This document shows positions 2 through 4,083 of a stretch of DNA of 5,671 bases, piece after piece. Numbering within the stretch: the first letter of the stretch is position 1; every line of letters begins with the position of its first letter. Below the pieces are notes generated by a model. The model made no database searches, was not told the origin of the DNA, and saw only the letters and a program-made list of their open reading frames with translations. Source of the stretch: Gammaproteobacteria bacterium (GTDB lineage: Bacteria > Pseudomonadota > Gammaproteobacteria > HTCC5015); NCBI GenBank assembly GCA_020630145.1, contig JAHDBX010000138.1, positions 1 to 5,671 on the forward strand, written 5' to 3'. Made by a program: the position numbers and the translations under genes.

Positions 2-1372
2 AAAATAGCACGTTTACTGAGTTTGGATATGAACGATGTTGACGTAACTCAATACAATGTTGAGAAGCTAGGTTGGCACCCCAAAGTTGTACAGTTTAAT
101 CATTATCATTTATTGATGATTGATGAAAAAGTAGCTGGGCGAGATGTATTACCATGGCTGCAAGAATATATGCGCGGCGAGACAGCCTTAGCTGTCGTTT
201 TACTTTGTAAGAGCCCGGACCAGAATACGCTTAATGCGGCTAAGAAAATAGGGATTTCCGCTTGTTTGGATAAAACCGGGTTAACGCGTTCATCATTACA
301 TACGGCAGTGACTTCAGCATTAATTCCATCTGAAGAAAGCGATAGTCAAAAAGCTAATACTGCTAGTGAAGAGACTGCTAAAGCTACTCAAACTAAGTCT
401 GATACTAGTTTGAATATGTCTATTGATAACTTAACGCGGCCGTCTTTAGATGGTTATACACCATTAGATACGCAGTCAGGCAAAATAAGAAAGCCGCGGC
501 CACGGCCAGTACATGAACCTCGCAAGCGTTTTAGTACTCGTAAAAGTACTATACCTGTGATACCCGGTTATGTGGTACTTAAAAAGGTTGGTCAAGGTGG
601 TATGTCGGTTATCTATCTTGCTCACCGCAAGAGTGATAGTAAGAAAGTCGTGATAAAAGTACTTTCTTCAGGCCTGTCTGAGAATGACACGCAGGTTATT
701 CGTTCTAATCAAGAGTTTGCTTTAATCAGTCGTATTAATAGCCCTTATATTGTAAAACTCTATGACCATGGTGTAGCTGATGATTCAACTTATACGGTTA
801 TGGAATATTTCTCTTCAGGAGACCTTAAACAGCGTATGTCAAAGGGTATTACGCAAAATGAGGCTTTGACCTTTTTAAGGCAGGTATGCTCTGGTTTAGC
901 AGCTATACATGGAAGCGGGGTTATTCACCGTGACTTGAAACCCGCTAATATTATGTTTAGAGATGACGATACCTTGGCAATTATTGATTTTGGTATTTCG
1001 CGTGATATCAATAGCCAACTAGATTTGACGCAACCAGGGCAAATTATTGGTACGCCTAACTATATGGCACCTGAACAAGGTAATAGTGGTTATAAACCTG
1101 ATGCGCGTTCTGATATATATTCCGTGGGTGTTATGTTTTTTGAATTGCTTACAGGCAAAAAACCTTACCGAGCTGCAAATGCAGCATCTATTATCTATAA
1201 GCATGCTCATGACCCTATACCTAAGTTGCCTAATAATTTCTTTGAAATGCAGGGAATTATTGATCAATGTATGGCAAAATTCCCTCACCAGCGCTTTCAG
1301 TCAGCAATAGATATGATTGAGTACATTAATACAGAATTTCGCTGGGATATTACTTTAGATTTTAAAGAATAA
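2..1372 (+). CDS. Receiver-domain/Ser-Thr protein kinase fusion, kinase 1 (5' end cut by window edge)
   Basis: Likely cytosolic Hanks-type Ser/Thr kinase controlled by an N-terminal CheY-like receiver. The frame is open to base 2. A TTG at 23 and ATG at 29 lie inside the receiver fold, so the true start is off the left edge; alignment with the next gene suggests about 16 residues are missing. Counting visible residues from base 2: receiver about 1-107, with Asp41 (LLMID) at the phospho-acceptor position, Cys69 at the Thr87 position and Lys91 at the Lys109 position of CheY. A Ser/Thr-rich then Arg/Lys/Pro-rich linker follows (about 108-185). The kinase domain (about 188-430) has loop GQGGMS at 197-202, catalytic Lys219, helix-C Glu238, HRDLKPAN 309-316, DFG 329-331, GTPNYMAPE ending at 358 and SDIYS. 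All catalytic residues are present, so it should be an active RD-type kinase. No membrane segment or sensory C-terminal domain is seen. Substrate unknown. Confidence 0.93.
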   Translation, partial: KIARLLSLDMNDVDVTQYNVEKLGWHPKVVQFNHYHLLMIDEKVAGRDVLPWLQEYMRGETALAVVLLCKSPDQNTLNAAKKIGISACLDKTGLTRSSLHTAVTSALIPSEESDSQKANTASEETAKATQTKSDTSLNMSIDNLTRPSLDGYTPLDTQSGKIRKPRPRPVHEPRKRFSTRKSTIPVIPGYVVLKKVGQGGMSVIYLAHRKSDSKKVVIKVLSSGLSENDTQVIRSNQEFALISRINSPYIVKLYDHGVADDSTYTVMEYFSSGDLKQRMSKGITQNEALTFLRQVCSGLAAIHGSGVIHRDLKPANIMFRDDDTLAIIDFGISRDINSQLDLTQPGQIIGTPNYMAPEQGNSGYKPDARSDIYSVGVMFFELLTGKKPYRAANAASIIYKHAHDPIPKLPNNFFEMQGIIDQCMAKFPHQRFQSAIDMIEYINTEFRWDITLDFKE

Positions 1373-1381
1373 AAAAAATAT

Positions 1382-2629
1382 ATGAAATTTCGAGTCCTTG
1401 TCATAGATCCGGTTGAGAAAATTAGATTGCAGCTGCTTAATCTATTAAAGCAGGATATTTCTGAGCTGGTACTTTATAGCTATGATCCTATTACACGTGG
1501 GCAACCCTCAGCAAACTTTAATTGGTTAACCTATGATTTGGTTATTCTTAGTTCCTATTTAGGTAAGGATAATGGTACGGGTCTAGAGTGGTTACAAGCA
1601 ATTAAGTCCGCAGAGGGTAGCCCAGGTGTCATCATGCTATGTGCTAAAAAAGATGAAGGCTTAGATGAAACCTATAAGGAAATAGGTGCAGATGAATGTT
1701 TGGCAAAAGAAAAGCTAACGCGAAGAATGCTCACCTCAGCCGTTTCATATATTGTTAAGTTTAATCAGTTGACGCGTAGCCGCAAAGAGTCTGAACACCG
1801 TAAAGCGCGGGGGCCTGAATTACCCGGTTATAAAGTGGGTAAGGTGCTTAATACAACGGATGTGTCTTCCTTGTACTTAGTGAACTCAGAGGCTGATAAT
1901 AAGCCTTATGTGATTAAAACCTTGTTTTCAGAATGGTTAGATGATGACTCATTGGTTGAACGCTTTGTGAATGAGTATGAGCTTATTCATGCAATTGACC
2001 ATCCTAATGTAGTGAAGCTTCATCAACTGGGTTTTACAGAAGAATTCATTTATATCATTATGGATTATTTGCCAGGTGGGAGCCTGTATGAGCGAATTCA
2101 GCAATGGAATATTAAATATGCACAAGCTTTTCGTTATCTGTGGCAAATGTCAGAGGGCTTGGCATGCTTACACAAGCAAGGTATTTTGCACCGAGATTTA
2201 AAACCGTCGAATGTTATGTTTAGGAATGCTGATCAACTCATGTTGATTGATTTTGGTATTTCCAAGCATTTAGGCAATATCAATGAAGATATGACGCAAA
2301 GTAACGTGGAAATGGGTACATTACCTTATATGAGCCCTGAAGCGGTCACGGCAACTGAGCTTGATGAGCGTAGCGATGTATATAGCATGGGCATCATCTT
2401 TTTTGAAATGCTGTCTGGTAAAAAGCCTTTTAGGCCTTTAGCGCCGATTGATGTACTAAAATACCATCGAAAAGAAGAAAGTTTTATACTGGGTGAGAAC
2501 TTAAAGCAGTTTCAACCGCTGATTGATGAAATGGTCGCCACTGACCGTGAAAACCGCTTGTCGGATATGGCTAATTTGCAAGCATACATAAAAGAACATT
2601 ATTCTCAGTACCTTGATGACGATTGTTGA
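1382..2629 (+). CDS. Receiver-domain/Ser-Thr protein kinase fusion, kinase 2 (degenerate receiver and glycine loop)
   Basis: Complete 415-residue paralogue of the gene before it, starting at ATG 9 nt after that gene's TAA and in the same frame, so probably co-transcribed. No clear Shine-Dalgarno is visible in the A-rich gap. Receiver 1-125: Asp9 remains of the acidic pair, but the phospho-acceptor position is Ser57 (DLVILSSYLG); Cys87, Cys106 and Lys109 occupy the CheY 87, 106 and 109 positions. A short basic linker (about 126-145) follows, much shorter than in kinase 1. Kinase domain 148-408: the glycine loop is replaced by LNTTDVSS (156-163), but Lys179 (VIK), helix-C Glu198, HRDLKPSN 270-277, DFG 290-292, SPE 318-320 (for APE) and SDVYS are kept. 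Inference: it may bind ATP weakly, be a slow kinase, or act as a scaffold or regulator of kinase 1. No membrane segment is seen. Substrate unknown. Confidence 0.93.
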   Translation: MKFRVLVIDPVEKIRLQLLNLLKQDISELVLYSYDPITRGQPSANFNWLTYDLVILSSYLGKDNGTGLEWLQAIKSAEGSPGVIMLCAKKDEGLDETYKEIGADECLAKEKLTRRMLTSAVSYIVKFNQLTRSRKESEHRKARGPELPGYKVGKVLNTTDVSSLYLVNSEADNKPYVIKTLFSEWLDDDSLVERFVNEYELIHAIDHPNVVKLHQLGFTEEFIYIIMDYLPGGSLYERIQQWNIKYAQAFRYLWQMSEGLACLHKQGILHRDLKPSNVMFRNADQLMLIDFGISKHLGNINEDMTQSNVEMGTLPYMSPEAVTATELDERSDVYSMGIIFFEMLSGKKPFRPLAPIDVLKYHRKEESFILGENLKQFQPLIDEMVATDRENRLSDMANLQAYIKEHYSQYLDDDC

Positions 2630-2660
2630 GTAAAAATACATAAAAAAGTCATGAATCCAA

Positions 2661-2689
2661 TAGACAAGCTTTGTCTGTCTCGTTAGAAT
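2661..2689 (+). promoter_or_regulatory. Probable sigma70-type promoter for the carAB leader
   Basis: TAGACA (2661-2666) and TAGAAT (2684-2689) each match the -35 and -10 consensus at five of six positions and are separated by the optimal 17 nt. Transcription would start near 2696-2698, which leaves an untranslated leader of about 200 nt before carA. It lies just downstream of the kinase 2 stop codon and is the best promoter match I found in this intergenic region. It is predicted from sequence only. Confidence 0.55.
2662..2676. repeat. Inverted repeat overlapping the -35 box
   Basis: AGACAA-GCT-TTGTCT is a perfect 6-bp dyad with a 3-nt centre. It overlaps the -35 element of the predicted promoter and runs into the spacer, a position suited to a repressor operator. 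No T-run follows it, so it is not a convincing terminator. It does not match the ArgR or PurR consensus. It could be chance. Confidence 0.3.
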
Positions 2690-2715
2690 ATCCGCCTAGC
2701 CAAAGTGGGTTAATA

Positions 2716-2769
2716 ATGATGTGCGAAACGCTGTTTTGCCATAAATCAATCCGCAAGAAGGAAGAGTGA
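2716..2769 (+). CDS. Possible 17-residue leader peptide upstream of carA
   Basis: A short reading frame, MMCETLFCHKSIRKKEE, starts about 19 nt after the predicted transcription start; GTGGGT 6 nt upstream is only a weak ribosome site. Its TGA stop (2767-2769) is exactly the 3-nt loop of the hairpin at 2759-2777, so a translating ribosome would melt that hairpin. It ends 14 nt before the T-run stem. It has only one Arg codon, so classical arginine-codon attenuation is not evident. Short frames like this arise by chance, so the support is positional: promoter, frame, hairpin and terminator in the order expected of an attenuator. Confidence 0.3.
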   Translation: MMCETLFCHKSIRKKEE

Positions 2770-2777
2770 CTCTTCCT
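2759..2777 (+). other. Perfect 8-bp RNA hairpin in the carA leader
   Basis: AGGAAGAG-TGA-CTCTTCCT forms an uninterrupted 8-bp stem with a 3-nt loop. GC at 2753-2754 could add two pairs with GC at 2778-2779 across a 4-nt bulge. No T-run follows, so it is not an intrinsic terminator by itself. It stands 6 nt upstream of the terminator-like stem and may act as a pause hairpin or ribosome-sensing element. It also contains an AGGAAGAG stretch, resembling a Shine-Dalgarno sequence, but no start codon follows at suitable spacing. Confidence 0.5.
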
Positions 2778-2783
2778 GCAGTT

Positions 2784-2827
2784 GGGGCGTATTAATTCAT
2801 CCACATGAATCCGACGGCCCTTTTTTT
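2784..2827 (+). terminator. Intrinsic terminator or carAB attenuator
   Basis: GGGC (2785-2788) pairs with GCCC (2817-2820), followed at once by seven T (2821-2827). Inside this, GT pairs with AC across a one-base bulge. After a small internal loop, ATTCAT (2795-2800) pairs with ATGAAT (2805-2810) around a CCAC tetraloop. The stem is interrupted, so its strength is uncertain. It lies downstream of the predicted promoter and 68 nt before carA. It could attenuate carAB transcription, end a small leader RNA of about 130 nt, or terminate read-through from the kinase operon. Confidence 0.5.
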
Positions 2828-2895
2828 ATGCCCAGATTATTAAGAAATAGCTTGATAAGCTGGTTTTATAACTCATTTATAGCTAGGTTAAAAGA

Positions 2896-4083
2896 TTGAA
2901 TAGTCAACATGCAATTTTGACTCCTGCGACTGAACCCGCCATATTAGTATTAGAAGATGGTAGCGTGTTTACAGGTCGTTCCATTGGTGCACTAGGTCAA
3001 AGTGTGGGTGAAGTGGTTTTTAATACCGCCATCACCGGTTACCAAGAAATTCTCACTGATCCATCATATGCCAAGCAAATTGTTACCTTAACCTATCCAC
3101 ATATAGGTAGTGTAGGTATTAATGCTGAAGACGCCGAGTCGACAGGCGTGCATGCAGCGGGCTTGGTTATTAGAGATTTGCCGTTACTAGCTAGTAACTG
3201 GCGCAGCGAAGAGTCTTTGTCTGCATACTTACAGCGCAACAACATTGTAGCGATTGCTGATATAGATACACGCCGTTTAACACGTATATTGCGTGATAAA
3301 GGCGCACAGAAAGGCTGTATTCTTGCAGCAGATAGCATCAGTGAGGCAGAAGTGAGTTCGGCGAAGCAGGCCGCGACAGCTTTTACCGGTTTGGTGGGTA
3401 TGGACTTAGCGAAAGAAGTAAGCACTGATAAAAGCTACCCGTGGAAAAAGCGCGTTTGGTTAGGTCCAGATGAAGATGAGCCAATAACGGTTAAGGCTGA
3501 ATATAAAGTAGTGGCCTACGATTTTGGTGTTAAACACAACATATTGAGAATGTTAGCAGAGCGTGGTTGTGATATTACCGTGGTGCCGGCGAAAACACCC
3601 GCAAGTGATGTATTAGCTATGCAGCCTGATGGCGTCTTCTTATCTAATGGCCCTGGTGATCCAGAGCCCTGTGATTACGCTATTGAGGCGATTCAAGTCT
3701 TGCTTGAAAAAGAGTTACCCTTGTTTGGTATTTGCCTAGGTCACCAGTTATTAAGCTTAGCGGCCGGTGCAAAAACGGTCAAAATGAAGTTTGGCCACCA
3801 TGGTGCAAACCATCCTGTGCAAGACCTTGATAGCAAAGTGGTTATGATTACTAGCCAAAACCACGGTTTTGCTGTTGATGAAGAGAGTTTGCCTGAGAAT
3901 ATCAAAGCAACACACCGTTCATTGTTTGACGGCTCTTTGCAGGGTATAAGCCTACTCGATAAGCCAGCATTTAGTTTCCAAGGTCACCCGGAAGCGAGTC
4001 CAGGCCCGCATGATGTGGCGCCTTTGTTTGACCAATTTATCCAATTAATGAAGTCTGCCAGTAAAACGGGGGCTGCGAAGTAA
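2896..4083 (+). CDS. carA: Carbamoyl-phosphate synthase small (glutaminase) subunit
   Basis: Hydrolyses glutamine and channels the ammonia to CarB for carbamoyl-phosphate synthesis, feeding pyrimidine and arginine pathways in the cytosol. The 395-residue product has the family's usual length. The N-terminal CPSase small-chain domain includes [11 protein letters not shown] (48-58), LTYPHIG (65-71) and [11 protein letters not shown] (120-130). The C-terminal class I glutamine amidotransferase domain has LSNGPGDP (249-256), the nucleophile Cys280 in [18 protein letters not shown], and His364/Glu366 in GHPEASPGP, completing the triad. The TTG start is chosen because an in-frame stop lies 12 nt upstream, no ATG or GTG is available near the N-terminus, and TAGGT sits about 8 nt before it; E. 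coli carA also starts with TTG. The N-terminus is about 10 residues longer than E. coli's, so TTG at 2917 is a weaker alternative. It is followed 4 nt later by carB. Confidence 0.97.

Follow-up and report, generated by a model that had tools for sequence, protein, structure and literature searches.

Adjacent receiver-Hanks kinases beside carAB in a gammaproteobacterial lineage, one of which lacks its receiver aspartate and loop glycines

Two adjacent genes, each encoding a receiver domain followed by a Hanks-type Ser/Thr kinase and here termed K1 and K2, lie upstream of carA in a 5,671-nucleotide stretch of DNA from a member of the Gammaproteobacteria (HTCC5015 lineage; assembly GCA_020630145.1, contig JAHDBX010000138.1). 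This stretch, referred to as the window, is a complete contig (G000:C140) of a source genome of 1.89 Mb that is 73% complete. In the lineage of the window, K2 has lost both the phospho-accepting aspartate of its receiver and the glycines of its kinase loop while the core catalytic residues remain, and the aligned proteins indicate that this is a derived, fixed feature of that one lineage. Our tentative reading is of a conserved pair in which K1 is active and K2 is a kinase of slower or conditional activity, switched on through phosphorylation by K1, with histidine-kinase input probably abandoned.

K1 (positions 2 to 1372, on the forward strand, as are all window features described here) and K2 (1382 to 2629) are open reading frames (ORFs) separated by nine bases, with matches to the Pfam Pkinase family of 177 and 165.6 bits, respectively, relative to a cut-off of 31.7. 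The arrangement of receiver then kinase described in the earlier note is thereby borne out for both, with the qualifications that the N-terminal part of K2 matches Response_reg below the curated cut-off (26.2 bits against 30.2; E 9.5e-6) and that the truncated K1 of the window has no receiver match in the Pfam scan, PF00072 being present in many of its listed orthologues. The note's description of this order as uncommon did not hold, as many of the best 120 proteins in each of three lists of matches carry both PF00072 and PF00069.

The residues that K2 has lost and kept are as previously described. Ser57 (1550 to 1552) occupies the position of the receiver aspartate, DP replaces the two acidic residues, and the sequence NTTDVS (residues 157-162; 1850 to 1867) stands where the family has GxGGMS. 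The catalytic Lys179 (1916 to 1918), the HRD motif (residues 270-272; 2189 to 2197) and the DFG motif (residues 290-292; 2249 to 2257) are all kept, as are Glu198, Lys274, Asn277 and Pro319-Glu320. A structure comparison covering residues 145-414 found PknB as the best match of the kinase. In the K2 model (mean predicted local distance difference test score, pLDDT, of 84; predicted template modelling score, pTM, of 0.64, such that domain placement is weak), the last receiver helix extends towards the kinase as a single 30-residue helix (residues 114-143; 1721 to 1810).

These changes are common to a clade of relatives. In an alignment of 23 K2 rows (A1), examined alongside a joint alignment of K1 and K2, the window lineage comprises seven rows from six lineages, consisting of the window's own K2 and P0002-P0007. 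All seven have serine in place of the receiver aspartate, the acidic pair replaced by DP or EP, and a loop of the form N-[TS]-[TS]-[DE]-x-S; none of the three glycines of the GxGxxG pattern expected of an active Hanks kinase survives in any row, while the VAIK lysine, alpha-C glutamate, HRD and DFG are present in each. The remaining 16 rows keep the aspartate together with a loop of the form xGGMS, in which 14 of them have alanine for the first glycine, and five further K2 proteins (P0211 and P0238-P0241) have the same state, making 21/21 distant K2 proteins intact in these respects. As the changes are shared by 7/7 rows, a private mutation or assembly error can be ruled out, and the degeneracy extends beyond a single strain. 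Conservation across 169 intact relatives defines 54 kinase-lobe positions, and all seven rows retain the usual residue at 43 of these, core catalytic residues among them; the alteration of K2 is hence described as selective.

By its sequence, K1 appears to be a complete kinase: the glycine loop, VAIK lysine, HRD and DFG are present in 43/43 K1 rows, the window's kinase domain (569 to 1300) having the intact loop GQGGMS (residues 197-202; 590 to 607). Its 5' end lies off the contig, leaving approximately 16 N-terminal residues missing, judged by comparison with P0122, and with them the N-terminal acidic pair of the receiver. The model (mean pLDDT 77, pTM 0.58; domain placement again weak) has receiver-like strands and helices at its N-terminal end, then a low-confidence, probably disordered linker (residues 112-181; 335 to 544), then the kinase. 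The phospho-acceptor position, Asp41 in the window (122 to 124), is Asp in 34 of the 43 rows, Ser in four, Glu in four and a gap in one. All four serine rows belong to the window lineage, in which they make up 4/7; the intactness previously ascribed to K1 therefore stands for its loop, and for its aspartate in the window itself, but not for the aspartate as a conserved trait. On the simplest reading of the tree, Asp was exchanged for Ser once in K2 and at least twice in K1. The four glutamate rows are P0150, P0151, P0152 and P0161, in which the substitution is possibly a built-in phosphomimic.

The two receivers have evolved at very different rates in the window lineage. Mean receiver identity is 33% for K1 and 68% for K2, in a comparison starting at K2 residue 20 as K1 is cut, while the kinases are similar (80% for K1 and 77% for K2). 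Likewise, tree lengths are 5.13 and 1.47 for the K1 and K2 receivers, respectively, as opposed to 0.87 and 0.99 for the kinases. Hence the K1 receiver has changed approximately 3.5 times faster than that of K2 within the same organisms, the ratio being approximately 1.2 in two hand-picked sister sets (receiver tree lengths of 2.86 against 2.34, and 3.22 against 2.69). Constraint thus appears to have moved from the K1 receiver to the K2 receiver, the opposite of what would be predicted were K1 switched by a phosphorelay, and His-Asp input seems to have been given up in the window lineage.

The most economical mechanism would be a Hanks kinase pair operating independently of histidine-kinase input, in which K2 is a loop-changed but catalytically plausible partner. 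The adjacency of the genes, the shared K2 losses, the retained catalytic residues, and the fast K1 and constrained K2 receivers are all read from sequence; beyond these, we infer that K1 would act upstream, phosphorylating Thr305 and Thr313 of the K2 activation loop (2294 to 2320; both kept in 7/7 rows), and perhaps Ser57. The helix joining receiver and kinase in the K2 model might then transmit the change to the ATP site, after which K2 would work as a slower or conditional downstream kinase, such that the signal would pass from kinase to kinase in place of histidine-kinase input in the window lineage. A division of labour according to kinase integrity, as the earlier note had envisaged, is plausible.

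Several observations weigh against this reading. The loop glycines of known kinases hold the phosphates of ATP, so the loss of all three may abolish K2 activity. The family-conserved Ala167, Glu228, Asp234 and Asp283 are altered in 7/7 window-lineage K2 rows, as are several further conserved positions in that lineage, the position of Asp234 being aligned with a threonine in PknB, itself an active kinase. Contrary to a shift of constraint off the K1 receiver, the aspartate is retained in 3/7 close K1 rows, including that of the window. Furthermore, K2 and carA are separated by 266 bases, which could hold a separate promoter for carA, leaving a single transcript with carAB unsupported.

Some eukaryotic pseudokinases act as allosteric activators of their partners, or position them. 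It is conceivable, if on the whole unlikely, that K2 is likewise catalytically dead and, on binding K1, allosterically activates or positions it, with Ser57 and the threonines acting as docking sites. The absence of all three glycines would fit such a role, as would the unusual constraint on the K2 receiver, which an interaction surface would be expected to experience, and the long stem of the window-lineage K2 (1.3-1.5 changes per site, followed by slow evolution). Nevertheless, the core catalytic residues persist in all seven rows. Bacterial pseudokinase families are grouped in PMC12599244 by divergence of their catalytic motifs. Of the lysine, the HRD aspartate and the DFG aspartate that characterise such motifs in kinases, K2 has lost none.

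The arrangement put forward in the earlier note, with K1 a Ser/Thr kinase switched by phosphorelay from a histidine kinase to Asp41 and K2 its substrate or scaffold, now appears improbable. The aspartate is found in most K1 rows, the window's included, and another genome of the same family (G002) has a row of genes for an Hpt/HATPase (CheA-like) protein, CheY, CheX and a distant receiver-Hanks kinase (L053, G002:C26, 4927-9357), which is likely to be a chemosensory-type input to a Ser/Thr kinase and makes His-Asp input plausible, and its existence probable, in the wider family. In the window lineage, however, the K1 receiver is the fastest-changing part of the pair, with serine at the acceptor position in more than half of the close rows, and no histidine kinase is found near the pair of the related genome G001 among the ORFs scanned.

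The earlier note had suggested looking upstream of the window for histidine kinases, PP2C phosphatases and FHA proteins, and that DNA is beyond the start of the contig. None of the three is encoded by the Pfam-scanned ORFs of the 18 kb G001 locus (L052), the last ORF of which, cytochrome b-like by eye, was unscanned. One flank of this locus contains holA and greA, neighbours of carA and carB, which were themselves recognised by similarity; the other contains genes for a multihaem cytochrome, rsmI, LppC, UPF0102, sspB, a GST-fold protein and cytochrome c1. PP2C and FHA genes are present elsewhere in 4/4 genomes of the order, and an adjacent PP2C and FHA gene in the source genome (G000:C184:1606-2838) are candidates for the phosphatase and the reader of Ser/Thr phosphorylation. 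Receiver-kinases also occur in other contexts. Those at L107 (9263-10513) and L108 (9199-10686) keep the aspartate, have the unusual loops AKGLST and SKGFTT, and lie close to a large frame giving a CheA-like match. Single receiver-kinases are beside an AcrB-type RND gene at L096, L097 and L099 (by Pfam at L097 and by similarity at the others), and beside a Lon-type protease at L098, L100 and L101 (by Pfam at L100 and by similarity at the others).

We give little credence to a more elaborate scheme, in which a two-component relay has turned into a pure Ser/Thr relay within its own receiver, the partner kinase phosphorylating the old aspartate site, K2 using a glycine-free ATP lid, and the pair tuning carbamoyl-phosphate synthesis. 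Slighter still is the chance that K2 is a nucleotide sensor, its rebuilt ATP lid reading nucleotide levels on behalf of carAB, a gene pair of pyrimidine and arginine synthesis. The pair does adjoin carAB in both genomes in which it occurs, and a second loop-poor group of receiver-kinases adjoins purF, which encodes the committed amidotransferase of purine synthesis, in 4/4 genome matches. Yet in G001 the K2 at the corresponding location retains its loop intact, which implies that the position beside carAB predates the degeneracy; moreover, the numbers are small, the neighbourhood may be mere inheritance, and one of the four purF matches (G276) keeps its aspartate and two glycines.

This second group (A3) has glycine at the aspartate position and no more than one loop glycine in 20/20 rows. 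Its matches at E <= 1e-110 come from four of 369 genomes (G169, G369, G276 and G020), representing four genera and three families; three are directly beside purF and one is approximately 1 kb away (L102, L105, L106 and L113), and all except that of G276 are without the aspartate and have either one loop glycine or none. At L105 (by Pfam) and L102 (by similarity), cvpA precedes purF. Four weaker matches (G142, G236, G121 and G059) keep the aspartate and two loop glycines, with no purF in the flanks searched. That both degenerate kinds adjoin genes for glutamine amidotransferases of nucleotide synthesis is no more than suggestive. Degenerate receiver-kinases are not always paired, since the four A3-type matches are each the sole receiver-kinase in stretches of 15-16 kb. 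Across 237 proteins, those with the aspartate comprise 169 with two or three loop glycines, three with one and two with none, the corresponding counts for those with the aspartate absent or gapped being 24, 17 and 22. Despite these strong-looking raw counts, a general rule that the two losses go together is unsupported on the tree, which has 12 changes of aspartate state and five of loop state (P0048 excluded): the second trait follows the first in approximately two of ten independent pairs, almost none reverse and eight show no difference (sign test p 0.5).

That K2 is a decaying pseudogene, as the loss of two classes of key residues might suggest, can be practically dismissed, given that its frame is maintained at 69-82% identity in six lineages and its kinase domain evolves at approximately the rate of K1's.

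The trees do not support the duplication that the earlier note had supposed. A careful tree was built from 37 rows selected among the 98 of a quick tree, and in it K2 (support 100/99) and K1 (96/91) group apart, divided by other receiver-kinases. Constraining K1 and K2 to a single clade costs 29 log units (approximately unbiased test, p-AU 0.00044). On these 37 rows a recent duplication yielding sister genes is thereby rejected, with the caveats that the question arose once the first tree had been made and that long branches are involved. The quick tree is concordant, the K2 label being interrupted solely by P0211, itself a K2.

G001 belongs to the same family but to a different genus; its genes run K1-K2-carA-carB-greA, and its K2 is 40% identical to that of the window. 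An ordered pair beside carAB is thus found in 2/2 readable genomes (G000 and G001), and probably on many metagenome contigs, but its universality is unsupported. The evidence from metagenomes comes from contigs of equal length: 14/23 K2 clusters, or 15/28 in a wider search, have exactly the same longest-contig extent as a K1 cluster. Among the matches listed, which are the best 120 of the candidates for each gene, with the window's K2 counted as unmatched and its K1 unlisted, 27/42 K1 clusters and 13/28 K2 clusters have no partner of equal length, including K1 clusters with contigs as long as 69, 65 and 48 kb and K2 clusters with contigs of 168, 74 and 18 kb; the extent of these lists, or genes occurring singly, could explain this. 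The true pair is rare in sampled species genomes, being confined to G000 and G001 among 369 of the class and 398 of the phylum, samples which overlap. No other true K2 was found at E <= 1e-150 among the 398, and in the class sample the K2 score drops from 656 to 379 bits at the next match. A scan of genome contigs yielded 15 loci, of which 13 are in Streptococcus; with identities of 29-32%, no locus qualifies as a true orthologue. In titles and abstract openings of open-licence literature, no report was found of paired receiver-Hanks kinases, or of such kinases with carAB or purF.

Downstream of the pair, carA (2896 to 4083, with a predicted TTG start as listed) encodes the small chain of carbamoyl-phosphate synthase. 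It is followed by a gene running off the contig end (4088 to 5671), which we take to be carB, as it strongly matches the large ORF next to carA in G001. No Rfam family reaches its gathering score within the window, and positions 2500-3000 contain two promoter-like sequences (1.7 in shuffles) and no terminator-like ones (0.4 in shuffles). That the kinases regulate the neighbouring carbamoyl-phosphate synthase genes or the enzyme is a guess from position.

The pair is of wider relevance in that a receiver and a kinase both lacking textbook residues are nevertheless constrained, beside a complete partner, with the intact-loop K2 of G001 as a natural control. It bears on whether a Hanks kinase can work without loop glycines, and on whether an Asp-to-Ser receiver has become the target of a Ser/Thr kinase. 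Among known systems, the kinase domains of K1 and K2 resemble, by family models, PknB-type Hanks kinases such as PknB of Mycobacterium tuberculosis and Stk1 of Staphylococcus aureus, the likeness of K2 extending to sequence and structural model. They score 239 and 184 bits, respectively, against the PASTA-kinase model NF033483, below its cut-off of 450 and over the kinase part only. They differ from PknB and Stk1 in having an N-terminal receiver and, in K2, in lacking loop glycines. The serine-bearing K2 receiver is comparable to aspartate-less receivers such as RitR, described in PMC4395418, where the idea that these are targets of Ser/Thr kinases is speculation; by contrast, that of K2 is fused to a kinase without loop glycines and paired with a complete kinase. 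Bacterial pseudokinases include EssB/YukC, MviN/ActPs3, DLHK, DYD and others, and according to PMC12599244 the glycine loop of EssB/YukC is degraded, as in K2, although K2 retains catalytic motifs. Neither 'receiver' nor 'response regulator' appears as a term in the main text of that review. Finally, PA3346/PA3347 of Pseudomonas aeruginosa is comparable in that, according to PMC12189002, a receiver domain controls a Ser/Thr signalling enzyme; it differs in that this enzyme is a phosphatase and that a histidine kinase phosphorylates the receiver.
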